Of a stretch of 64,000 nt of DNA, positions 9,633-64,000 are shown piece after piece. Position 1 is the stretch's first letter; each line of letters begins with the position of its first letter. Source of the stretch: Candidatus Zhuqueibacterota bacterium (GTDB lineage Bacteria > Zhuqueibacterota > Zhuqueibacteria > Residuimicrobiales > Residuimicrobiaceae); assembly GCA_963169875.1 (NCBI GenBank), contig CAUJEL010000131.1, positions 1 through 64,000 of the forward strand, in the 5' to 3' direction. The translations under genes and the position numbers were made by a program. The notes beneath the pieces are model-generated. The model was not told the DNA's origin. It was given only the letters and a program-made list of their open reading frames with translations, and ran no database searches.

Positions 9633-9887
9633 ATAATTCTTCACTGCTCCACGATTACTGCGGACTCTGTTGCAGATACAGATTCTTTCTGCGATCAGTG
9701 TTGACTCATTAAAATTTGCCCCAGACCCTAAAAGATGCATACAGCATGACATTTTTATATACTTGTGTGTATGCCGCAATCGCGAAGGCCGATCATAGCA
9801 TGCCAAACCCATCAGAAGATAGGGACAGAAACCCGAAACTATTGTATCCGGCCAGGGTGACAATTCACTGCCCGGTCTAAATACAGG

Positions 9888-11072
9888 CTACAATTCCACC
9901 ATATGGATGGCGTCTTCGGGGCACACCAGATAGCAGAGCGAACACCCTGCGCACTTTTCTGCGTGTATGACTGCTTTTTTTCTCTCCATTTTAATGGCCT
10001 GATATCCGCCATCCTGACAGGAAGTATAACATATTTTGCAGCCGTTGCATTTGTCGGCATCCACCCGCGCCTTCACCGCGTAGTGTGGATCCAGGTCGGC
10101 ATAGGCGCGGACCAGAGGATTCATCCGGCCGATAAAATCGCCCGGCTTTGAAAACTGATGCCACGCCATGAACTGCAGCAGTTCTTTTTTCATCCGGGTG
10201 ACCATGGCAAAGCCGTGCAGCATGACGGCCGTGCAAACCTGCACCAGCGGTGCGCCCGCCAGCATGAACTCGGCAGCGTCGCCGCCGGAGCAGATGCCGC
10301 CGCAGGCCATGACGGGCAGTGCGGGGGTTTGGGCCAGGTGCGACACGCATCGCAGCGCAATGGGTTTTATGCCCGCGCCGGAATAGCCGCCTGCCGTGGT
10401 ATAGCCGGCCACCGAGGGCCGCGGTTTGAGGGTTTTCAAGTCAAAACCCATCAGGGAGGGGATGGTGTTGATGGCGCAGAGCCCATCAGCGCCCGCCTCG
10501 GCTACGGCTTCGCCGATATGGGTGATGTCCGTCACCGCCGCCGTCAATTTTGGGATGATGGGAATGGTCAGCTGTTTCTCCTCTTTCAACCAGCGCGTGA
10601 TGACGGCTGAATACTCCGCGTTCTGCCCGATGGCCGCGCCCTTGCCCTTTTCCGGATAACCATGCGGACAGGAAAAGTTGAGTTCAATGAGATCCGCGCC
10701 CGCATCCTGGCAGCCCAAAGCCAATTCCAGCCACTGCGCTCTGTTTTTTGCATCCCCCATGATGCTGCCGATGATTCTTTTTTCGGGGTAATCCCTTTTC
10801 AACGACCGGATGTCGTGATACCACTGCTCCGGCGTCTGTTCGCTCAAGAGTTCAATGTTTGAAAACGCCATGATGTCCTTGCCAAAGCGGATTCCGGCGA
10901 AACGATTTTGCAGGTTCTTGACCGGCTCACGAATGAGCGTCTTGATGACCGCACCGCTCCAGCCGGCCGCAAAAGCGCGGGATAACATTTCGCCGTTGGC
11001 CGTGGGAGGGCCGGAAGCGAGCACAAAAGGGTTTTCAAAGGTCACGCCTAAATAATTCACGGAAAGCTCCAT
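9888..11072 (-). CDS. preA: PreA-type dihydropyrimidine/dihydroorotate dehydrogenase with 2x[4Fe-4S] tail
   Basis: The 394-residue protein starts with a dihydroorotate-dehydrogenase-like TIM barrel (1-320). It has GVTFENPFVLASGP near the N-terminus and the active-site loop LIELNFSCPHGYPEKG with the catalytic Cys. FMN-binding glycine segments are present (VMACGGICSGGDAAEFMLAGA). The last 60 residues hold two 4Fe-4S clusters (CNGCKICYTSC and CAGCSLCYLVCPEDAI). This matches PreA, the catalytic subunit of NAD-dependent dihydropyrimidine dehydrogenase, which reduces uracil or thymine. The electron-input subunit PreT is not adjacent, so it is either encoded elsewhere or this paralogue uses another donor. 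Confidence 0.85.
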   Translation of the reverse strand: MELSVNYLGVTFENPFVLASGPPTANGEMLSRAFAAGWSGAVIKTLIREPVKNLQNRFAGIRFGKDIMAFSNIELLSEQTPEQWYHDIRSLKRDYPEKRIIGSIMGDAKNRAQWLELALGCQDAGADLIELNFSCPHGYPEKGKGAAIGQNAEYSAVITRWLKEEKQLTIPIIPKLTAAVTDITHIGEAVAEAGADGLCAINTIPSLMGFDLKTLKPRPSVAGYTTAGGYSGAGIKPIALRCVSHLAQTPALPVMACGGICSGGDAAEFMLAGAPLVQVCTAVMLHGFAMVTRMKKELLQFMAWHQFSKPGDFIGRMNPLVRAYADLDPHYAVKARVDADKCNGCKICYTSCQDGGYQAIKMERKKAVIHAEKCAGCSLCYLVCPEDAIHMVEL

Positions 11073-47911: not shown

Positions 47912-49228
47912 TTATTTCCTGTTGGTCTCCAGGGAAAACGACCCATTGTGAAAAGTCTCTTGATTCTTCAGAGCCGACATCATTTCCTGCGTCTCGCGCA
48001 AACCTTGCGTCAGCTCCTGGATCGCACTTTGCTGGCGGTTGAGTTGCGCCTCCAGCCTGGCGATCGTCTCTTTTGCCGATTGCAGGTCACCGGTTCTTTT
48101 CTCCAACGCCTGCAGACAGATCATGATGATGCCATCCATATCCGCCGAGGCCAGCAGCGTGTCATTGCCGATCTTGCCATAGCGATCACTGCCGTAATAG
48201 GCGAATATCTCCTGCGCCATGGGGCCATAATGGCGAAACTCGGCCGGGTCCTGGGTCTTGTAATTCCAGCTGCCAAGGCGGAGCCGGGAGAGGCTGGCGA
48301 GAAAACGCTCACCGTCAGCCGTTAGAAAGTTTTCTTTTCGCGTCGAATCTGAAACAGAAGACCAGCTGCTGCCCCCTGCCACCATTTCAACCCCGCTGGT
48401 GAGGCCTTGATTTGTGTACAGGCGATATCCGCCCACGAACCGCATGGTCATCTGGTTATTGGCGGTGGCGTAAACGCTGTCGCTGGAAAAACTGGCACTG
48501 GCATCGCCAATGACGCAGGAACCCTGCCTGCCAGCGGTGCGGCAATTTTTGCCGATGGCGACGGAAAATTGGCCGTTCGCTTTGTTCTGCAGGCCGATGG
48601 CCACGGCGAAATTTCCACTCGCAATGCTGGGACCGATTGCAATGGAGGCCAGACCGCTGGCGATCGATGAGGGCCCCAGTGCCAGCGCATCGTCATTGGT
48701 CGCCTGGGCGCCGCTGCCCAGCGCAATGGCGCCAACCGCCGATGCGGTTCCATTAAAGGTAAGAGCACGATCTGCACTGGCGGTGCTATAGTTGCCCAGA
48801 GCTACCGATTCATCGCCCGTGGCCGTGGTCGCCAGTCCCAATGCAAACGAGTTATCGCCACTCGCCCGCGTATTGCTGCCCATGGCCACAGAATATTGCC
48901 CGACATTGTTATCGTCCCAATACGTGGCGCCAAAACTGCTGACTGCACCGGCCCGGAAAGCGGCTTTGCCGGGATGCCACATCAACCGGACCCCGGCCCC
49001 GGTCACCGGAATGGTGCCGACATTCAGGGTACCGCTGCTGTAATATCCGCCATCCGCAAACGTCCTGGAAACAGAAGCACCATCGCTTTTCAGGATATCG
49101 AAACTGCTGCTGTTGTCGCTCGTGGGCAACTTGATCGAGGTCGATTGCGCCCAAAGCACTTCGCTGCTCGCAAAAAACGAGAAAAGCGACAAAGTAACAA
49201 ATACCACCAGACGTGATCCGGTTCTCAT
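47912..49228 (-). CDS. YadA-head-like surface protein with S74 chaperone domain
   Basis: This 438-residue protein has a signal peptide (RLVVFVTLSLFSFFASSEVLWAQ). Left-handed-roll YadA head repeats follow, of the form S.A.G..S.A.G (SVAMGSNTRASGDNSFALGLATTATGDESVALG and on). Near residue 287 begins an S74 intramolecular chaperone domain (SDSTRKENF with the conserved Ser and Lys, then HYGPMAQEIFAYYG). The C-terminal helix is a coiled coil (QSAKETIARLEAQLNRQQSAIQELTQ). Such domains trimerise fibres and then cleave themselves. The ATG at 49228 has GAGGAG upstream. It is likely a trimeric surface adhesin; phage origin is possible but no phage genes adjoin. Confidence 0.82.
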   Translation of the reverse strand: MRTGSRLVVFVTLSLFSFFASSEVLWAQSTSIKLPTSDNSSSFDILKSDGASVSRTFADGGYYSSGTLNVGTIPVTGAGVRLMWHPGKAAFRAGAVSSFGATYWDDNNVGQYSVAMGSNTRASGDNSFALGLATTATGDESVALGNYSTASADRALTFNGTASAVGAIALGSGAQATNDDALALGPSSIASGLASIAIGPSIASGNFAVAIGLQNKANGQFSVAIGKNCRTAGRQGSCVIGDASASFSSDSVYATANNQMTMRFVGGYRLYTNQGLTSGVEMVAGGSSWSSVSDSTRKENFLTADGERFLASLSRLRLGSWNYKTQDPAEFRHYGPMAQEIFAYYGSDRYGKIGNDTLLASADMDGIIMICLQALEKRTGDLQSAKETIARLEAQLNRQQSAIQELTQGLRETQEMMSALKNQETFHNGSFSLETNRK

Positions 49229-49489
49229 AGACAAGTCTCCTCTAGAATGAATTTTTCTGCGCGTTGCTGAAAAATTTTTCAAGCCCTGTAAGGGTGATAT
49301 AGGGCTGACAAGTGAAGTTTAATTGCAGGATGCCAACAAAGATGCGGAATCAATCTGGTTGCGGTGCCGGATGGGTGCCTGACAGGATGGATGATGCCTC
49401 ACAGGCGCAAAGATATAAATATTATAGCAAAAATGCAATGAAAAGCGTGTAATACGCCCGTTTTTAAAAAAAATGTGCGGCTGCGATTC

Positions 49490-52000: not shown

Positions 52001-52321
52001 ATGCAAACAGTCTTGGAATGCATAAAACATGGTAAAAAATGCGTACCAAGGCTGTTTTTTGATAATAAAAACACCAATCCGTTCAACAATGCCACGGCCA
52101 TTCGCTACGATTTGAAAGCGAATGCACGGATGAGAATCGCCCCATATGATGTGCGCGGCATTGAAGTGGCGGTGTTGAAGGATGGTTTTGAAAACGCGGG
52201 AACGCATGTGATCCATTGCGATGGACAGCAGTTGCCTTCCGGCTTGTACGTCTATCAGATCACCGCGACCAGCGACAAAGAGACCTTCCAGTCGCAGCGG
52301 CAGATGGTTTTGATAAAATAG
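52001..52321 (+). pseudogene. orphan T9SS sorting-domain remnant
   Basis: The 106-codon frame encodes NTNPFNNATAIRYDLKANAR, then YDVRGIEVAVLKDGFENAGTHVI, then LPSGLYVYQITATSDKE and MVLIK. This is an almost complete C-terminal sorting domain with no cargo and no signal peptide. The first 24 codons (MQTVLECIKHGKK...) have no ribosome site. It is probably the 3' end of a surface-protein gene whose front was lost. A strong terminator still follows it. Confidence 0.7.
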
Positions 52322-52915: not shown

Positions 52916-55261
52916 ATGTCAGCAGACGCAGATGTATTTATTTGTTACAACCACAAAGATAGAGAAGAAGTTCATCAAATTGTTTCGATAATTAAAAATA
53001 ATTGCAAAGTTGGGGTGTGGTTTGATGAAGAAGATGCACATAAAAAAACGGGATGGATCGCCCAGGTCGAAGAGAAGCTTCGCAAATCCAAGATATTCTT
53101 GATTATTTATGGGCCGAGTGGACTCGGAGAGTATCAAAAAATCGAACGAGATGCTGCAATTGAACTGAACAAGCAGAACAACAATACTCCGATCATCGTG
53201 GGCATAGCTCTACAGGCGACGAAAAAAGAATCCATTCCAACGTTCGCCTATCATTATCCTATCATATTTAAAGAAAACGACAGCGCTTTTGTGGCAGAGT
53301 TAAAAAAAACATGTGATTTGGTAAAAAGCCCTCGTAATAAATCATTGCATCATTATTGGGATGGAGGAATCTTATATTGTAATTTTGATAAATTTTCAAT
53401 GGCCAAGATCGGCACACAAGAAAAAATGACCCTGTTCCTGCAGCACCATGTCGAAAGTTTCCTTCGAAATGTTCCATATGATAAATATGTCGATTTAAGA
53501 GAAGGTGAGGCACTGATATTTTTAAGGAAGCCTGATGATATAAACCAACGAGATGTATTAAGGCGATTATTATTCTTTGGTTTGGGATTACAGTTATCAG
53601 CCTCCACCAATGAATTCTTTATTGGTATTACCTTGCATACAGGACGAGATGCGGTATTTTTGGCGGTAGGTGGCAGTAAAACCCTTACAGGTGTATCCCT
53701 GTCTGAGGCGAGGAGATACATGTCGTTCTCAAATGGAAGGCATTTCTTAATTTCCAGCGATGCACACAAAATACTGGAACATGATTTGCACCCCTCCTCC
53801 ACGGCAAAAAGTAATTTCGCCGACCTCTTTGGAGACGAATTTTCAAAATTTCCAGATTATCCAAAGCTCGAAGGTGAATTCGATTGCAAGGAATTTGTTT
53901 TTCATGATCGCCATAGGCGCAAAGTTTCATTGCATAATCTCTCGTTTCAGAAACAGGATTGCATGATAGGCGATCCCAATTTGCCGAATTATCTGGTAGC
54001 CATCGAGTTTCGTGATAGAAGCCGCGAGTTAAAGCGAGGCCAGGTTTTTATAGAAAGATTAATAGCGGCGGATAGTGTGTTTCTAATTGGTCTTACGGGT
54101 GAATTGACTAAGGATTTTTTGAAATTTGCCCATGAGGAAAGGCTAAAAGAAAATAAAAGTTTTTGGAACAGCATATCTATCATCTTCCCGAGTGAAGATA
54201 CGATCAGGCGCATCCACGAACCTCGGCCTATCGAAGAACGTATTAAAAAATGGCAAGACGGCCGCCGGACAACCTTCAGTTATCTGTATTCATTAGGTCC
54301 GGAACACCTGGACAAATGGAAGTGCCTTGAATTTGATGGCAATTTGCCATTCACAGGTGATCAAATTGTTGATAATGGCATTAGCTCCATACGAATCTCA
54401 CCCGTACTTCCCGGCACTGACATGAGGAAATCTTACAATACGGAAATATTTCAAGACACGCCTGCTTTTGACCTCCTCTCCCAATCGTTTGAGGAAATCC
54501 GAAAACATTCAAAACCTTATGTAGAATGGATTGTCCACGGAGACTTTGATATCGACACAAAAAGACTGAAATACGCGGGTGTGGTTCGCCTCGAAGAAAT
54601 TAGCAATCTCGAACAAAACCGGCAGCGCATCATATGCCAACCTATTGCTCTGGTCATCCTGCATGGTAGAAAAAGTGGCCAGAAAAAAATATATTTGCAA
54701 AAGCGGACAGAATTTAATTCTACGAGCGATATCGGCAAATATTCAAATATTGCGGGGAGGGTCACTGATAAAGATTTAATTGATTCGTTCAAAAATAAAT
54801 TTCCAAAGGCAAAAATTGCGAAAATTATTCACGAATCAGATAATTATATAAAGTTACCAAGTGACGGTTACACAGAAAAATTGATGGCTGAACTTGAACT
54901 TGGATCAAATAAATATCTTCCCGATGAAATGTGGAAACTTGCCGCGCAACGCGAAATTCAGGAAGAGCTTGGATTGATCGTTGATGTCAGCAGGCTAATA
55001 CATCATACGAATATCTATCATCAAAGACAAGACCGGCAAAGTGCCCAGCTATTTCATATCTTTTCACTGGAACTTAAACTGGATAACGACCCGGAAATTA
55101 ACCAGATCGTAAAATTTCGCCCGAACGCCAGTTTAGAACCTTTTACCTTGGCAGATATTGAAAATTTATGGAAGACTAACCAACTCAATTCACTGCTTCA
55201 GGTCCACTTAAAGGATCTATTTATACCGATTTATCAACAGATCATTGGAATCCAAGATTAA
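52916..55261 (+). CDS. TIR / nucleotide-cyclase-like / Nudix multidomain protein
   Basis: The product is 781 residues. Residues 5-130 are a TIR domain (ADVFICYNHKDREEV, GWIAQVEEKLRKSKIFLIIY, GPSGLGEYQKIERDA); Glu77 is a candidate catalytic residue of NAD-cleaving TIRs. Residues 150-290 resemble a class III nucleotide-cyclase fold (ILYCNFDKFS, LREGEALIFL, IGITLHTGRDAVFL, GVSLSEARRYMSFSNGRHFLIS), but the first metal Asp appears as Asn155. Residues 330-575 are unassigned. Residues 577-781 are a Nudix hydrolase with the box core REIQEELGL (679-687) and Glu671 seven residues before it; the usual leading Gly is not in place. GGGAG precedes the ATG. It is the first gene of a four-gene operon. It could make and destroy an ADP-ribose-type nucleotide, by inference. 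Confidence 0.82.
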   Translation: MSADADVFICYNHKDREEVHQIVSIIKNNCKVGVWFDEEDAHKKTGWIAQVEEKLRKSKIFLIIYGPSGLGEYQKIERDAAIELNKQNNNTPIIVGIALQATKKESIPTFAYHYPIIFKENDSAFVAELKKTCDLVKSPRNKSLHHYWDGGILYCNFDKFSMAKIGTQEKMTLFLQHHVESFLRNVPYDKYVDLREGEALIFLRKPDDINQRDVLRRLLFFGLGLQLSASTNEFFIGITLHTGRDAVFLAVGGSKTLTGVSLSEARRYMSFSNGRHFLISSDAHKILEHDLHPSSTAKSNFADLFGDEFSKFPDYPKLEGEFDCKEFVFHDRHRRKVSLHNLSFQKQDCMIGDPNLPNYLVAIEFRDRSRELKRGQVFIERLIAADSVFLIGLTGELTKDFLKFAHEERLKENKSFWNSISIIFPSEDTIRRIHEPRPIEERIKKWQDGRRTTFSYLYSLGPEHLDKWKCLEFDGNLPFTGDQIVDNGISSIRISPVLPGTDMRKSYNTEIFQDTPAFDLLSQSFEEIRKHSKPYVEWIVHGDFDIDTKRLKYAGVVRLEEISNLEQNRQRIICQPIALVILHGRKSGQKKIYLQKRTEFNSTSDIGKYSNIAGRVTDKDLIDSFKNKFPKAKIAKIIHESDNYIKLPSDGYTEKLMAELELGSNKYLPDEMWKLAAQREIQEELGLIVDVSRLIHHTNIYHQRQDRQSAQLFHIFSLELKLDNDPEINQIVKFRPNASLEPFTLADIENLWKTNQLNSLLQVHLKDLFIPIYQQIIGIQD

Positions 55262-55266
55262 GCAGA

Positions 55267-56715
55267 ATGGAATTCTTCCCTGGATTACATATTAACTCTG
55301 AGCTGATCATCGAGCCCATAACCATTAAAGGCACTAAACCTGCTTTTAGTTATCCTTTCACTCTGCTGGACGTTTATCCCCTCATACCATCCCTCAGGAT
55401 GCAGGAAGTAATGAAAATCGTCCTGGCGAGATTGGACCGCTTGCATGCAAAATTGGAGCACAGGACGGGACAAATGCCCAAATCCCCTCTCGGAGGTTTC
55501 CTTAAGCACGACGCGGGCATACTGTTTTTTCATCTTTTCAATCCAACCAAACCCCTCAAAACAACAATTGATTCTTCTGATTTAAATCCTTTTGATTTTG
55601 ACCATCGTCAACATATCTACCCTTATTCCTTTGAGCATGCCTCCCCAGCGAAAATAGTGCATTCCATGTACTGGATAGATTGCAATCTGAAAACTCAAAT
55701 AGAGAGCATCGGAATCAAAAACAACCTTCCCAAAGGATTAATCATTGAACTGGTTGAATCAGCGCTACATTTCTATTCACTTTTGATCAAAATGAATGAT
55801 TATGAGCTGGCGCGACGCATGAATTTTAATTTCTCGATTTTTCTTCAAGACAGGATCGTCGAAGTGATCTTTGGTGAACTGGTAAAAATGGATCAAGAGA
55901 CGCTGTGGTTACGCGGCAAACTGTCCAATGAAATTGCATTACAATACCTTAAAAATTTTTCTTCCCTGGACGGATCAAAACTCCTGGAAATGAGCGCGTT
56001 CATGGGCGTAGTCTGGTATTCGACTGCTGAGATACAAAACGATTTTCTATCCCAAACTGCTGCAGGACTGCAAAGAGTGGAAGAACAATTTCATAAAAAA
56101 CGACATGTTTGGGCTATCAATGATTACAGCCTTTTTTTATCTGATCTCGAATCCTGCGCCAACGGCTCTATCACGGTGATACTGGATGATAATGGAGAAA
56201 CCGTATTCGATCTCGCTCTCTTCCAACTCATCCATACAATGTATCCTCAACTGAAAATCTCTTTTATTGTGAATCAATTCCCGATTAGTAATAATATTTC
56301 TATCGAGATTTTTAACGCAATCTTGGAAGATCCATTTTTTTCGCAACTGAAGCATTCAATTGTGGAAAGTCAAATAAAAATATTTATAGAAAAGCAGCTA
56401 TTCAGATCATTCGAAATCGATTTGTTGCAGACTCAAACGCGCGCCATTCTGGATCGATCAGATATTGTCTATATCAAAGGCGCTAATTTTTTTGAAACCT
56501 TTCAGTTGGAGAACTCAAAACGATACCATTGTTTTACCGTATGGGGCGAAGGAAGTGAACGATTAACCGGTTTTTCTGAAGGCGAGGGGGTTTTTGTGCG
56601 GTTGAATCCGGGTGAGCTCGGATTCAGAGTTGCAAACACAGCCGAGAAACTGACCTTAAAAGATATCATAGCTAAAAGGATGATGAATGAAAAAACAAGC
56701 CCTTCTCATAATTGA
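55267..56715 (+). CDS. DUF89/ARMT1-like metal-dependent phosphatase-fold protein
   Basis: This 482-residue protein has a helical N-terminal half and a C-terminal half resembling the DUF89 damage-control phosphatase fold. It has SITVILDDNGETVFDLALF (301-319, the Asp-Asn metal motif), then FIVNQFPISNNIS (333-345), then SDIVYIKGANFFET (398-411, the KGxxNxE-like motif). In DUF89 enzymes these motifs bind a divalent metal and a sugar phosphate. The Asp expected near residue 344 appears to be Asn, which may alter catalysis. It begins 5 bases after the TIR-Nudix stop and overlaps the next gene by 29 bases. A phosphosugar product of ADP-ribose breakdown is one possible substrate (inference). Confidence 0.72.
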   Translation: MEFFPGLHINSELIIEPITIKGTKPAFSYPFTLLDVYPLIPSLRMQEVMKIVLARLDRLHAKLEHRTGQMPKSPLGGFLKHDAGILFFHLFNPTKPLKTTIDSSDLNPFDFDHRQHIYPYSFEHASPAKIVHSMYWIDCNLKTQIESIGIKNNLPKGLIIELVESALHFYSLLIKMNDYELARRMNFNFSIFLQDRIVEVIFGELVKMDQETLWLRGKLSNEIALQYLKNFSSLDGSKLLEMSAFMGVVWYSTAEIQNDFLSQTAAGLQRVEEQFHKKRHVWAINDYSLFLSDLESCANGSITVILDDNGETVFDLALFQLIHTMYPQLKISFIVNQFPISNNISIEIFNAILEDPFFSQLKHSIVESQIKIFIEKQLFRSFEIDLLQTQTRAILDRSDIVYIKGANFFETFQLENSKRYHCFTVWGEGSERLTGFSEGEGVFVRLNPGELGFRVANTAEKLTLKDIIAKRMMNEKTSPSHN

Positions 56716-57226
56716 CATGCAAAAAGATCTTTGCTACGACAAGAGGAGACACAAAAAAGTAGTCAAGCTCTTACCGCATTTGCAAACTGCAATCCAACAC
56801 GCAGACGAGAATGGATTTGCTATTTATTATATTTGTTTTGAATTGAAACCGGATGACATTCAATTTAAGCGATATGGTGACCAGTATTGTATTGAAGGCA
56901 CTCCTGGCGCAGAGATCATCGATGAATTGCAGCCGGTGAAAGGCACCATTATAAAAAAAAGAAAACATAGCGCTTTCTTTGAAACAGAACTCGACGATTT
57001 GCTCAAACAATCAAAAATTGATAAAATTTATATGACGGGGATGCAGACACAATTGTGTATCATGACGACAGCCGCAGATGCCTCTTTTCGCGGCTACGAC
57101 GTCAGCGTAATAGCTGACTGCGTACTTTCGACCAGAGAAAAAAACAAGACTTGGGCGCTTAATTGGATTGACAAACATGTTGGTAAGGTCATCACCTTGG
57201 ACGAATTCTGCAGTGGTTCAGTATGA
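56687..57226 (+). CDS. isochorismatase-fold cysteine hydrolase
   Basis: The 179-residue protein has the complete Asp-Lys-Cys triad of the isochorismatase/nicotinamidase superfamily: Asp10 in LLIIDMQKD, Lys93 in KKRKHSAFFET and Cys124 in TGMQTQLCIMTTAADASFRGY. YCIEGTPGAEI (67-77) is the shared substrate-loop motif. The DxHxxxH metal site of true nicotinamidases is not visible, so amide specificity is open. AAGGA lies six bases before the ATG. It overlaps the genes on both sides (29 and 4 bases), showing tight coupling. Hydrolysis of nicotinamide or another small amide from the TIR reaction is an inference. Confidence 0.85.
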   Translation: MKKQALLIIDMQKDLCYDKRRHKKVVKLLPHLQTAIQHADENGFAIYYICFELKPDDIQFKRYGDQYCIEGTPGAEIIDELQPVKGTIIKKRKHSAFFETELDDLLKQSKIDKIYMTGMQTQLCIMTTAADASFRGYDVSVIADCVLSTREKNKTWALNWIDKHVGKVITLDEFCSGSV

Positions 57227-58236
57227 ATCACAAAATTGAATTGGCACATGGCGATGGCTGTCGAGCAACCTTGGAATTCGTTAAAAATGAGATTTTAGCG
57301 CGTTTCTCAAATCCTATCCTGGATCCATGTGACGACAGCAGTATTATCGATATTACATCCAAAGAAATCGCGGCAACAACGGATTCATACATTGTTGATC
57401 CGATCATCTTCCCGGGCGGCGATATTGGCAAATTGTCCATGTGTGGGACTATCAATGATCTGGTCGCATCTGGCGCCAAACCTCTGTACATCACACTTGG
57501 TTTGGTTCTGGTGGAAGGTATCGAATGGCATCAGGTTAGCACTATTTTAGACTCGATCAACCAGGTTATCACTGAAGCAAACGTGAAGATTATAGCCGGC
57601 GATACGAAAGTGCTGCCCAAACAATACCAGGGCAGCATAATCATCAATACAACCGGGATAGGAATCCCCGTTCAGCAAGGCAAGTATTATCAAGTCTCGC
57701 AAGCGCAGACTGGTGATGACGTCATAATTACAGGTACGATTGCAGATCATGGTCTAGCGGTGATCTCTGCACGCGAGGGTCTGGGTTTTGAACAAAAGAT
57801 CAAGTCTGATTGCGCACATCTCGATGAGTTGCTTCTACCCATTTTAACTCAAGAGAATGGCATAACCTGTATGCGCGATCCAACACGTGGTGGGATTTCC
57901 AATGCGTTGATTGATATTGCCGAATCTTCTCAAAAACAAATTGAAATTGATTGGGATTTGATTCCGATTCAACCAGAGACAAAATTTGGTTGTGAAATGC
58001 TTGGAATTGACCCCCTCTTTTTAGCCAATGAAGGGAAAATGATCATCGTGACAAATAGTAATTACTCCGCTTCATTGCTGAAACAGATCAGAGCACATCC
58101 ACTCGGTGTTGCGAGCGCTTTGATTGGTAAAGTTAAAAAGAAAACCGATACCGGCATGGATTTGCTCATGGTAAAAGGCAGAAAAAAAATAAATATTCAG
58201 CGGACCTGGGGGATGCCGATACCCCGGTTATGCTGA
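57223..58236 (+). CDS. hypE: HypE-type carbamoyl dehydratase homologue
   Basis: This 337-residue protein is similar along its whole length to HypE: IELAHGDGCRAT at the start, TDSYIVDPIIFPGGDIGKLSMCGTINDLVASGAKP (53-87), IAGDTKVLPKQ, RDPTRGGISNALIDIAE and NEGKMIIVT. It ends PIPRLC, matching the conserved Pro-Arg-Ile-Cys tail whose Cys is carbamoylated by HypF and dehydrated to thiocyanate during NiFe-hydrogenase maturation. The N-terminal GSGG loop reads GDGC. No hypC, D, F or hydrogenase gene is in the window. It is the last gene of the TIR-Nudix operon (ATGA overlap), so a role outside hydrogenase assembly is likely. Confidence 0.88.
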   Translation: MNHKIELAHGDGCRATLEFVKNEILARFSNPILDPCDDSSIIDITSKEIAATTDSYIVDPIIFPGGDIGKLSMCGTINDLVASGAKPLYITLGLVLVEGIEWHQVSTILDSINQVITEANVKIIAGDTKVLPKQYQGSIIINTTGIGIPVQQGKYYQVSQAQTGDDVIITGTIADHGLAVISAREGLGFEQKIKSDCAHLDELLLPILTQENGITCMRDPTRGGISNALIDIAESSQKQIEIDWDLIPIQPETKFGCEMLGIDPLFLANEGKMIIVTNSNYSASLLKQIRAHPLGVASALIGKVKKKTDTGMDLLMVKGRKKINIQRTWGMPIPRLC

Positions 58237-58343: not shown

Positions 58344-58649
58344 TTAGTCGGCTGAGGTCTTGAATACATGTTCCAATTTGGGGGGCACATCTGATATTAC
58401 CACAATTTCTTCATTCAGCGCCGTCTCAATCTTGACAATGGTTTTAAGCGTAAGATTGGCGTTGGCCGCTAAGATTTTGCACAACTGTGATTCTTTCATC
58501 CCCAATTGTTGCGCAAATTCCTTCTGCGTCAGATTGCGCTGCTTCAACAACCGGTAGATTTTATCCGCGATTTCTTTTTGTTTTCTGACCAATGTTTTGG
58601 TCGCGGGGGAAACAGTGTCGAGCAATTTGCCGAACTTGGATTTTGCCAT
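58344..58649 (-). CDS. XRE-family antitoxin-like regulator
   Basis: The product is about 101 residues. An N-terminal helical arm is followed by a helix-turn-helix at about 42-95: LLKQRNLTQKEFAQQLGMKESQLCKILAANANLTLKTIVKIETAL, then a short acidic tail. This is the layout of HigA-type antitoxins that follow their toxin. The ATG at 58649 begins one base after a stop codon of a decayed upstream frame, matching a toxin-antitoxin operon whose toxin is broken. Upstream TTG (58661) is an alternative start. Confidence 0.75.
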   Translation of the reverse strand: MAKSKFGKLLDTVSPATKTLVRKQKEIADKIYRLLKQRNLTQKEFAQQLGMKESQLCKILAANANLTLKTIVKIETALNEEIVVISDVPPKLEHVFKTSAD

Positions 58650-58650
58650 A

Positions 58651-58920
58651 CTAATCTTCAACTGTAAAATAAAAGTTGCCTTTCAGAGTAGTACCGGAAA
58701 TGATCAATTCCCGGGTACGGATTCTTTCATCAATTTGCGCCAACAATTCGTCAAGTTTTGATGAGTGGATACTTCTTTACCACCCAGGAATTTGTCCAAT
58801 TCTATTTCAAGCCAGCAAAACCTTTTCGAGCTTTCTGAAAGCAACTCTAAAAAAGAAAAAATCCGTGGACATAAACGATTACTCTGCACAATTTCTTTGA
58901 CTTGGTAAAACTAAATGGTT
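58651..58920 (-). pseudogene. decayed small gene upstream of the antitoxin
   Basis: Two minus-strand frames each look coding in part. One gives CPRIFSFLELLSESSKRF and WLEIELDKFLGGKEVSTHQN, ending at a stop near 58704. The other continues as SKLDELLAQIDERIRTREL and IISGTTLKGNFYFTVED, ending one base before the antitoxin ATG. A frameshift joining them would give one small protein in the toxin position. The family is not recognised. Confidence 0.4.
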
Positions 58921-60720: not shown

Positions 60721-63700
60721 TCATTTCTTCATACGACGAATAACAGCTTCCACGTTTTCGATCGACACATCCAATCGTTCGGCTATTCTTATTGGCGCGA
60801 ACTTATTAGATTTTGCCCAAACTTCTATCATCTCTATAGTTTCTTCAGATAAATCGATAGTAACATCATCTTCAATCTCATTTATTGACAATTCAGTTGA
60901 GTCAATTGTTGGGTATTCAGGAATTTTATCAACGTCAATTCTCCATGCCTTGGACCATTTATCCAAATCAACAAGGACCTTTTCGAATTTTCTGTTTTGC
61001 TTTTTTTCGTAATAGTCTGCAAGACGTTTTAAATTTTTTATCCAGCGATCCTTTGCAAATTGGATCTCTGTATTAGTTGCTGGAATTGGTAATTTGTCGT
61101 TTTTGAATGCTCTTACATAAAATTCAAGGGCATAAACTATCTTTGTTGTTCTTTCAATGGCTAACCCCACAGCTGTAAAACCGACGATATTTTCCCAAGC
61201 CGTATCAATAACATGCTTTTTAATTATGGCTGCGATTTCATCCCTATTTTTAATAGTAGTCACATTGTAGAAATCTTTACAACTTGCAACATTAATTATT
61301 AGTATCCTAAGAACTTGTGAATAGATGGTTTTTATTTTCTTAGCGGCATGGTATGTTTCGATTGCTTCACTCCAATGCTCTTGATCTAAGTTATGCTTTA
61401 ATAAGATTGGGTATAGTTTAGCAAGTACATCAATGGATTTTTGACCTTCTTCTCTAATCAGAGTTTCCAAAATGTTAGTATCAGGATATTTCCTTAGCAT
61501 CTCTATCGCTGATGCAATATCCCCTTGATGTATAAATGATTCTATTATAAGATTGGCGTTTTGCTGCGAAATTGTTTCATTTTTATGATCTTGCCAAATC
61601 TTGAGAATGCTTTCATTTTTACCAATTTTTGCCAACCACTCTAGATTTTCAGGAAAGTCCAGGACGTCCGCTTTTGCAGTCTTGTAATCATCGGTATTCG
61701 GTTTAATATGCATTCTATCCCATCTGTCAACAGCCTCTTTATATTGTTTGGCTCTGTATGCTATGAGTCCAATATCATAGGAGTCCTGGATTAGTAAGCC
61801 ATTTTTTTCAATCTTTACAAGTTTTGAGTATACAACACTAAAGTTAGTGTAATTTTCTAATTTTGAGAAAGCGTGAATCAGATTTTGGATGACCACTTTA
61901 CTCCATTTTTCATCACAAATAATTTCATAGCTATTTGAGCCTTGCATTTCTGTGAGAATAAAATCAAGGAAGCTCTCACAGTTTGAGGCATTTTGGTTGT
62001 CATTTAAGAAATAGGCAGCGCGATGTTTTAAAGAATTTATGAAATGATTATTATTTAATATTTTATCGTAGTTACTAGCATTCCAATAGCAGTCTAATGC
62101 TTTTGCATATTCTGCTAACTGCAGATAAGTATCTCCTGCTTCTTCTATAGAACCCTCTATTTCGCATCGGATTGCTTTGCACAGCAAAGCTTTTTGTTTT
62201 TGATTTGCCCTAATAAAATTGTCTTCGGCAAGCTTTAATTTGTATGGGTCTTTTTCTAATACCCCAACCGACATAAATTGTTCAGCTATTGCTGCTGGGT
62301 CATCTTGGTCGCCGCTAAAAGTCTCCTCTCTGCCAGGTTGCCAAAAGTTACAATCATCTGCTTCCCATGTATATTGGGTATTTTTCTGGTAACGATTAAT
62401 AAGATCCTCAAGCTTTGTGAGTAAATGATTGTTCCAGAAAGAATCAATCCCTTCTGTAGTATCCACTAAGATCAATCGTCTAATTGGCCTACTTGCACCA
62501 ACATAAAGTCTGTTTAAAAAGTACTCTAGTGAGACTGACTTCTCTCGTTCATCATTAACAGCATCCTCATCATCAAGAGGTTTCAGTAATTCGGGATAGT
62601 CATTAAGACAGCACTCTCCAAATTTATATAGAACAACGCGTGAGAATTCCAAGCCTTTCGCACTCATAGCGCTTAAAAAATTTCGGTTTGAAATAGAAGA
62701 TTTCCTTTGGAGCGTTTGCAGAAACTCATCGTCATTGACAAAATCCTCCTCTTCACCTTCTTGACAGGGCAAAATAATAACTAGTTCTTCTTGTTTTAAC
62801 AAAGCATCCTGGCAGACTGGATTTTTAATATCAAATAATGCTACGACAGGTGCATCATTCATAAAATACGTTTTTTGCGGCCGTAAATCCTTGATCTCAA
62901 ATAAGAGTCCTCTAATAATCTGAATAAAGTTGCAGAAGCCAACAATCTGTTTTGAGGATCTGTAATTCAACTTTAATTCTTGAAAATTAAATTGCAGATT
63001 TGCATACCCAAAGGCGTCTAATTCCTGGACGATTTTTTCGTGAAATGCAGATTTTACAGCATTCCAGTCAAATCCAGTAGGATTAAGTGTTTGATAGGGA
63101 TCCCCAGCGAATGCAAAGGGCAAATATTTGAGCACTTCTGATGGTATTTTACGATTAGAGTAGATCGTCAATTTCAAGATCAATTCAAGTTCATTTCGTG
63201 TAAAATCCTGTGCCTCATCACAAAAAATAGCAGTCCCTTGTGAAAGCTTTTCAAGTGGTAAGTCTAGTACGCAACGAGCCAAGTCCTGATCATCCCAGTA
63301 TCCTTCGTTCTCACAAAGCTTTTTAAACCATTGCTCCCACACAATGGTATACACTTTTTCAAATGTCTCGGGTAGAACAGTCAATTGCTTTGCTGGAAGC
63401 TCTTTATAAACATCAAGATCGCAATAACTGCCAAAATCGTCACGCATACCTTTGATATACGTTCTTATGATATGCCATGCAAATTCGGCCGTAGTATGCT
63501 TCATGGTCATATCAGAGGTTTTTGTATATTTGTTATTAAATAGCAGTTTAAATTTTTTAAAATCCACCCGTTTTTCAGGATTAAAATGATTTCTTTGGTT
63601 TAATGGCAGTAAGTTAAGTAAATAGTGCTGGAATTCAGCAAAACAGCTATCAATGGAAACCTCTTTGCTTTTAAGCTGATAATCAAATCCATCGACTCTT

Positions 63701-64000
63701 AAATGCGGATTTGTACTCAATATAGTAGTCACAATATATCTAGCCCGTTCCACAAGTTTGGAACTATATGTCAAATAAATCGGTCTTTTAGTTGATGCCC
63801 CCGTACTTTTAACTAAATATGTATAAACCCTATCTGTGAACAGATATAAGAGTATGGTCGTTTTTCCACTTCCCGGACGTCCGTTAATAAACAATGGAAA
63901 AATGTGCTCCCTATTCCGAAGACGGATGTTTTCAAGTATCTCAATTTCTTCCGGCGAAAGTGCGATGTTGCCTTCGGTGTTTGTTTCAATATCAATCCAC
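60721..64000 (-). CDS. SF1 (UvrD-like) helicase with helical-repeat C-terminus, 5' end beyond window
   Basis: At least 1092 codons, open to the right edge. Helicase motifs run in order: NGRPGSGKTTILLYL (I), AIFCDEAQDF (II), AFAGDPYQTLNP (III), LKLNYRSSKQIVGF (IV), SAMSAKGLEFSRVVLYKFG (V) and FLNRLYVGASRPIRRLILV (VI). The last ~550 residues are TPR-like helical repeats (AGDTYLQLAEYAKALDCYWNA; AYRAKQYKEAVDRW), and the end has a small HTH-like segment (IAERLDVSIENVEAVIRRM). The frame extends upstream of the TTG at 63894 without interruption (ALSPEEIEILENIR). It is AT-rich and next to the TIR operon, so a defence or repair role is inferred. Confidence 0.85.
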   Translation of the reverse strand, partial: WIDIETNTEGNIALSPEEIEILENIRLRNREHIFPLFINGRPGSGKTTILLYLFTDRVYTYLVKSTGASTKRPIYLTYSSKLVERARYIVTTILSTNPHLRVDGFDYQLKSKEVSIDSCFAEFQHYLLNLLPLNQRNHFNPEKRVDFKKFKLLFNNKYTKTSDMTMKHTTAEFAWHIIRTYIKGMRDDFGSYCDLDVYKELPAKQLTVLPETFEKVYTIVWEQWFKKLCENEGYWDDQDLARCVLDLPLEKLSQGTAIFCDEAQDFTRNELELILKLTIYSNRKIPSEVLKYLPFAFAGDPYQTLNPTGFDWNAVKSAFHEKIVQELDAFGYANLQFNFQELKLNYRSSKQIVGFCNFIQIIRGLLFEIKDLRPQKTYFMNDAPVVALFDIKNPVCQDALLKQEELVIILPCQEGEEEDFVNDDEFLQTLQRKSSISNRNFLSAMSAKGLEFSRVVLYKFGECCLNDYPELLKPLDDEDAVNDEREKSVSLEYFLNRLYVGASRPIRRLILVDTTEGIDSFWNNHLLTKLEDLINRYQKNTQYTWEADDCNFWQPGREETFSGDQDDPAAIAEQFMSVGVLEKDPYKLKLAEDNFIRANQKQKALLCKAIRCEIEGSIEEAGDTYLQLAEYAKALDCYWNASNYDKILNNNHFINSLKHRAAYFLNDNQNASNCESFLDFILTEMQGSNSYEIICDEKWSKVVIQNLIHAFSKLENYTNFSVVYSKLVKIEKNGLLIQDSYDIGLIAYRAKQYKEAVDRWDRMHIKPNTDDYKTAKADVLDFPENLEWLAKIGKNESILKIWQDHKNETISQQNANLIIESFIHQGDIASAIEMLRKYPDTNILETLIREEGQKSIDVLAKLYPILLKHNLDQEHWSEAIETYHAAKKIKTIYSQVLRILIINVASCKDFYNVTTIKNRDEIAAIIKKHVIDTAWENIVGFTAVGLAIERTTKIVYALEFYVRAFKNDKLPIPATNTEIQFAKDRWIKNLKRLADYYEKKQNRKFEKVLVDLDKWSKAWRIDVDKIPEYPTIDSTELSINEIEDDVTIDLSEETIEMIEVWAKSNKFAPIRIAERLDVSIENVEAVIRRMKK

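Follow-up and report, generated by a model that had tools for sequence, protein, structure and literature searches.

Thoeris (ThsA/ThsB), SpbK, CBASS-TIR and SPARTA are systems in which a TIR protein with a catalytic Glu is carried on transferred DNA as part of a short operon. These features are shared by a four-gene cassette at positions 52916–58236 of the stretch analysed here (the window), 64,000 nucleotides of contig CAUJEL010000131.1 from a Candidatus Zhuqueibacterota bacterium. The cassette encodes a TIR–Nudix protein (gene 1), an ARMT1-like/DUF89 phosphatase-fold protein (gene 2), an isochorismatase-fold hydrolase (gene 3) and a HypE-like protein (gene 4).

ThsA (SIR2-SLOG), the CD-NTase and the Argonaute of Thoeris, CBASS-TIR and SPARTA are absent from the cassette. 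Unlike Thoeris and other TIR NAD+ systems, it has a Nudix domain within the TIR protein as well as three metabolic enzymes. No ThsA-like neighbour was found, and neither Pfam nor PADLOC detects a CD-NTase or an active class III cyclase gene, as expected for CBASS or Pycsar, in the operon. The action of TIR and Nudix domains on NAD-derived compounds recalls phage NARP1 and Nudix/ADP-ribose networks (PMC9503650, PMC12774641), but the described networks that the search returned do not combine a TIR–Nudix protein with DUF89, isochorismatase and HypE proteins. An earlier reading of the DNA (the original prediction) held that no system of this composition has been described. None was found by PADLOC or in the literature, where most subscription papers lay outside the search.

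We propose that the four genes are a conflict cassette acquired by horizontal transfer, which most likely acts against phages and centres on NAD or nucleotides, and in which genes 2–4 constitute a small-molecule line. We estimate the probability of this reading at roughly 45 %.

A four-gene cassette found in two phyla

The open reading frame (ORF) positions confirm the four genes and the junctions of the original prediction. A 5-base-pair (bp) gap separates genes 1 and 2, while genes 2 and 3 overlap by 29 bp and genes 3 and 4 by 4 bp, which bears out the proposed tightly packed unit. The start of gene 3 is backed by the alignment with its relative in a second copy of the cassette, L052.

L052 belongs to a metagenome-assembled genome (MAG) named gamma proteobacterium endosymbiont of Lamellibrachia anaximandri, a gammaproteobacterial tubeworm symbiont. 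It carries all four genes, with order and strand identical to the window, encoding proteins of 800, 492, 183 and 347 amino acids. The first two junctions are gaps of 7 and 13 bp; at the third, genes 3 and 4 overlap. In MAFFT alignments, the identity between the window and L052 is 28 % for gene 1 over its full length, 35 % for gene 2, 55 % for gene 3 (55–57 % across comparisons) and 47 % for gene 4. The corresponding tblastn E-values are 8e-52 (residues 257–773), 2e-84, 2e-63 and 3e-98.

Because the same families are found in this order in a second phylum, the grouping is not a product of chance, and it is near certain that the four genes form a real cassette. The original prediction had suggested looking for a conserved neighbourhood in other genomes; with L052 one has been found. 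Its observation is confirmed, and the idea of one system is strengthened. The proteins are merely 28–55 % identical; therefore, either the linkage has outlasted a long divergence or the cassette has been transferred repeatedly as a unit.

Across 84,980 species genomes, a motif-directed scan, which hung on essentially one motif and is limited to that extent as a measure of rarity, returned two relatives of gene 2. One is in L052 and the other in L053, a Candidatus Termititenax locus in which the gene 2 homologue stands alone (9692–11044). The scan used a gene 2 alignment supplemented with artificial rows in which only the DDNGE and KG motifs are constant; the rows served only for choosing search patterns. 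Genes 1, 2 and 4 gave no hits when scanned as single sequences, the automatic patterns having fallen in unconserved stretches. No second cassette is present among 82 genomes of the window's phylum, and no third in 369 Gammaproteobacteria, 210 genomes of the L052 order or 74 of the L053 phylum; these related groups amount to about 730 genomes. Searches with tblastn were negative for genes 1 and 2 in plasmids and for gene 2 in phages, as were scans of viral contigs with the paired alignments. Viral matches to a DDNGE-only pattern were rejected as chance. We conclude that the cassette is real and of old origin, and that it is rare.

The operon has a G+C content of 40.9 % in the window, compared to 54.3 % for the first 51.9 kb, and of 39.9 % in L052, compared to 57.4 % for the remainder of that stretch. 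Given about 40 % G+C in both hosts against surroundings of 54–57 %, the cassette moves horizontally. In being mobile and sporadic (low G+C, absent from sampled relatives of both hosts), it appears to behave like defence genes. The distribution bears on the possibility of a house-keeping or stress cassette, which would perform metabolite repair or carbamoyl/amide salvage and use the TIR domain for NAD-linked regulation rather than immunity. Such a role is in keeping with the damage-control function of DUF89 phosphatases, with the fact that three of the four genes encode enzymes, and with the lack of known defence neighbours of the L052 copy. It is nevertheless distinctly improbable in view of the TIR–Nudix fusion, the sporadic presence on low-G+C transferred DNA in both hosts and the absence from their sampled relatives.

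Table 1. Positions of the cassette genes, domains and motifs in the window.
Feature	Position	Strand	Basis
Gene 1: TIR – (palm/cyclase-like?) – conserved middle domain – Nudix protein, 781 amino acids	52916–55261	+	ORF call, Pfam
TIR domain, amino acids 7–120	52934–53275	+	Pfam
Putative catalytic Glu77	53144–53146	+	aligned to Glu of Cat1 TIR; invariant in L052
Possible degenerate nucleotidyl-cyclase-like (palm) domain, amino acids 140–290; doubtful	53333–53785	+	low-confidence model, weak Foldseek
Most conserved middle region, amino acids 360–540	53993–54535	+	alignment with L052
Nudix domain with insert	54638–55258	+	Pfam NUDIX
REIQEELGL half of Nudix box	54950–54976	+	RE..EELGL invariant in L052
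Gene 2: ARMT1-like/DUF89 phosphatase-fold protein, 482 amino acids	55267–56715	+	ORF call, Pfam
DDNGETVFD motif (canonical DNxGE)	56185–56211	+	motif table over DUF89 homologues
Partner Asn342-Asn343 (canonical Asn-Asp)	56290–56295	+	motif table over DUF89 homologues
Gene 3: isochorismatase-fold cysteine hydrolase, 179 amino acids	56687–57226	+	ORF call, Pfam
Gene 4: HypE-like PurM-superfamily protein, 337 amino acids	57223–58236	+	ORF call, TIGR02124
GDGC replacing canonical GSGG (GDGS in L052)	57250–57261	+	HypE alignments
C-terminal PRLC (canonical PR[I/V]C; Leu for Ile/Val)	58222–58233	+	alignment; L052 also ends PIPRLC

Motifs and predicted activities of the four proteins

The TIR, cyclase-like and Nudix domains ascribed to gene 1 by the original prediction fare differently, since Pfam bears out only the first and the last. 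TIR_2 is matched at 4e-14 in the window and 3.9e-12 in L052. The NUDIX match reaches 2e-4 with the whole protein and 2e-5 with the C-terminal part alone. Within the Nudix box (GX5EX7REUXEEXGU), the REUXEEXGU half is present in both copies, while the Gly is replaced by Asn in the window and the upstream Glu by Lys in L052. TIR and Nudix activities are predicted for gene 1. The cyclase-like part has neither a Pfam match nor profile-profile support. It is weakly supported by the order of strands and helices in a poor AlphaFold model (predicted local distance difference test, pLDDT, of 36; used only as weak evidence) and by Foldseek matches to class III cyclases (E ~1e-3). An hhalign comparison of the middle of gene 1, based on a very shallow alignment, with the host's own cyclases was negative. 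The most conserved middle region matches no Pfam family and nothing in PADLOC. By eye only, the middle region recalls PLD-like sensor domains.

The DUF89 fold, the isochorismatase triad and the full HypE of the original prediction are all confirmed, by family matches and, for the triad, by the residues described below. Gene 2 matches ARMT1-like/DUF89 in Pfam (6e-11) and is 27 % identical to the Termititenax homologue. In a low-confidence model (48.7), used for fold class only, every Foldseek match with E≤0.001 is a DUF89 structure. The protein resembles the ARMT1/DUF89 damage-control phosphatases in its fold, the positions of its motifs and the expected nucleophile, Asp307. It differs from them in having a TIR protein in its operon and in the motifs themselves, which read DDNGE...NN in the window, L052 and L053, as opposed to DN[A/S]GE...ND in ordinary, distant homologues (canonically DNxGE...ND). 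Asn and Asp are exchanged between two positions that we take to be metal ligands (Asp-Asn...Asp to Asp-Asp...Asn). Phosphatase activity is possible but not assured from these residues, and the sugar-phosphate step that had been foreseen for DUF89 is not to be assumed with this altered pattern. Stand-alone DUF89 proteins of 410–475 amino acids are numerous in Margulisbacteria (L053, L060, L062, L065 and L068); the motif is DDIPE/ND in L060, and L053 has the cassette-type DDNGE/NN swap.

Gene 3 is an isochorismatase-fold protein (Pfam 1e-37) in which the triad Asp10, Lys91 and Cys124 is invariant with respect to L052. Its closest solved structure is the N-carbamoylsarcosine amidase-related protein 3eef (1.7e-20), and its best partial match in NCBIfam is biuret amidohydrolase. 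The triad and its flanking conserved segments are shared with the branch of N-carbamoylsarcosine amidase, RutB and biuret hydrolase. Gene 3 stands apart from this branch in being at most 36 % identical to plasmid homologues among the matches listed, compared to 55–57 % for its L052 partner. The Asp/His/His site, which we take to be the metal site of nicotinamidases, is replaced by Glu52/Lys54/Tyr67. On these grounds a nicotinamidase role was rejected, and the nicotinamide route put forward earlier is unsupported.

These residues also bear on a second possibility, in which the cassette dismantles NAD and thereby blocks its restoration by phage pathways such as NARP1 that reuse the products of NAD depletion. 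The TIR domain would release ADP-ribose and nicotinamide, the Nudix domain would convert the former to AMP and ribose-5-phosphate, DUF89 would dephosphorylate the ribose-5-phosphate and gene 3 would deamidate the nicotinamide. This sequence of activities fits and the TIR and Nudix residues are kept, but the nicotinamidase ligands of gene 3 are missing, the DUF89 metal ligands are rearranged and the HypE-like protein is left without a role. We regard this possibility as improbable.

Gene 4 matches TIGR02124 over its whole length, with 352.5 bits against a cut-off of 251.6. Both cassette copies keep 59 of the 72 columns that are invariant in ordinary HypE. The ATP motif DX4GAXP is present as DLVASGAKP, and the C-terminus retains Pro-Arg-x-Cys (motif definitions DX4GAXP and PR(I/V)C from PMC4506123). 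This Cys carries the carbamoyl and then the thiocyanate in HypE (PMC4506123, PMC12130793). Gene 4 is set apart by the change of GSGG to GDGC or GDGS along with a few other columns, by the lack of adjacent hyp or hydrogenase genes, and by its place in the tree. In that tree of 38 HypE sequences, the window and L052 copies group together (100/99) on a long stem of 1.8, and every ordinary HypE falls outside this clade; how deep the clade lies is uncertain because the end branches are long. Each host encodes HypF and, besides the cassette protein, an ordinary HypE (G000:C104 and G082:C112). A hydrogenase-maturation role of gene 4 was rejected on the gene context and the second, ordinary HypE.

The kept motifs argue that gene 4 is enzymatically active and applies HypE-type chemistry to a different acceptor. 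Because the ATP motif and the C-terminal Pro-Arg-x-Cys are retained, carbamoyl/cyano chemistry is plausible; the protein may depend on HypF. The dehydration of a carboxamide to a nitrile, originally assigned to this protein, finds no support: what HypE dehydrates is a thiocarboxamide borne by its own C-terminal Cys, a residue kept here. We know of no HypE that dehydrates free carboxamides. Since gene 3 resembles N-carbamoyl amidohydrolases and lacks the nicotinamidase ligands, genes 3 and 4 would share a carbamoyl theme, probably the best clue to the chemistry of the cassette.

This theme permits a third possibility. Genes 2–4 could synthesise a new carbamoyl- or cyano-bearing nucleotide or sugar, serving as alarm signal or warhead, with the TIR–Nudix protein as its receptor and effector or as off-switch, similar to CBASS or Thoeris with another ligand. 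Three of the four genes encode metabolic enzymes, the cyano-donor tail of the HypE-like protein is kept, gene 3 is carbamoyl-amidohydrolase-like, and Nudix and TIR occur in one polypeptide. As no nucleotide cyclase, CD-NTase or group-placing transferase is encoded and the cyclase-like part is weak, such a pathway seems unlikely.

The low-G+C island and its other genes

The G+C content falls sharply, from about 54 % to 40 %, near 52.3 kb, and the low part continues to the contig end (65862), including locus L095. This drop marks a transferred island. At its edge, a 106-amino acid fragment (52001–52321, +) resembles the tail by which type IX secreted proteins are sorted; it is perhaps a gene cut by the insertion of the island. 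The low-G+C part also encodes a secreted protein that bears a type IX sorting tail.

Downstream of the cassette, a helix-turn-helix protein (58344–58661, −) matches the PADLOC candidate PDC-M64B/C (7e-20), and no obvious toxin partner was found beside it. The island further contains a large UvrD/Schlafen-like helicase (60721–63894, −, running on into L095 2–1795, −). It adjoins a 185-amino acid protein (L095 1927–2484, −), in which we read a nuclease-like DPDIVI...IEVKA segment. The two may be a second, undescribed defence-type pair. Outside the island, at 47912–49282 (−), YadA-head repeats and a Peptidase_S74 chaperone domain indicate an adhesin or a protein resembling tail fibres. Scans with Rfam and for tRNAs returned nothing.

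Proposed mechanism and its implications

In the conflict-cassette reading that we favour, gene 1 would be the sensor-effector. Its middle region would sense an infection cue, on which the TIR domain would cleave NAD+ or a related dinucleotide, and the Nudix domain would cut either the resulting ADP-ribose-type compound or a different nucleoside diphosphate compound. Genes 2–4 would act on the product of gene 1 or make a group that is placed on it. The HypE-like protein would receive a carbamoyl on its C-terminal Cys from the host HypF and turn it by dehydration into a thiocyanate/cyano donor. The isochorismatase-fold enzyme would hydrolyse a carbamoyl or amide compound, and the DUF89-type phosphatase would remove a phosphate.

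Because of the TIR–Nudix fusion, the mobility and the sporadic presence, a defence function is likely, although the case for it is indirect. The UvrD/Schlafen-like helicase in the same island is counted in its favour. Several points weigh against the reading. PADLOC calls no system for the operon and gives only weak ThsB-type TIR matches (2e-4). No more than two copies are known, each from a MAG, and by our reading of its neighbours the L052 copy adjoins biotin-synthesis genes outside any defence island. Neither TIR nor HypE homology alone proves activity, HypF is so common that its presence is weak evidence, and the action of genes 2–4 on the TIR product is inferred rather than shown.

It is possible, though somewhat unlikely, that the cassette is the first immune system with hydrogenase-type carbamoyl-to-cyano chemistry. 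A HypF-charged HypE paralogue would then, together with the DUF89-type and amidohydrolase-like enzymes, make or break a modified nucleotide that the TIR–Nudix protein senses or destroys. If this is true, TIR/NAD-type immunity would extend beyond simple NAD cleavage and take in a small-molecule pathway of several enzymes. HypE chemistry, to our knowledge known only from hydrogenase maturation, would gain a second role. The predicted dependence on hypF is directly testable in E. coli K-12, which carries its own hyp genes.

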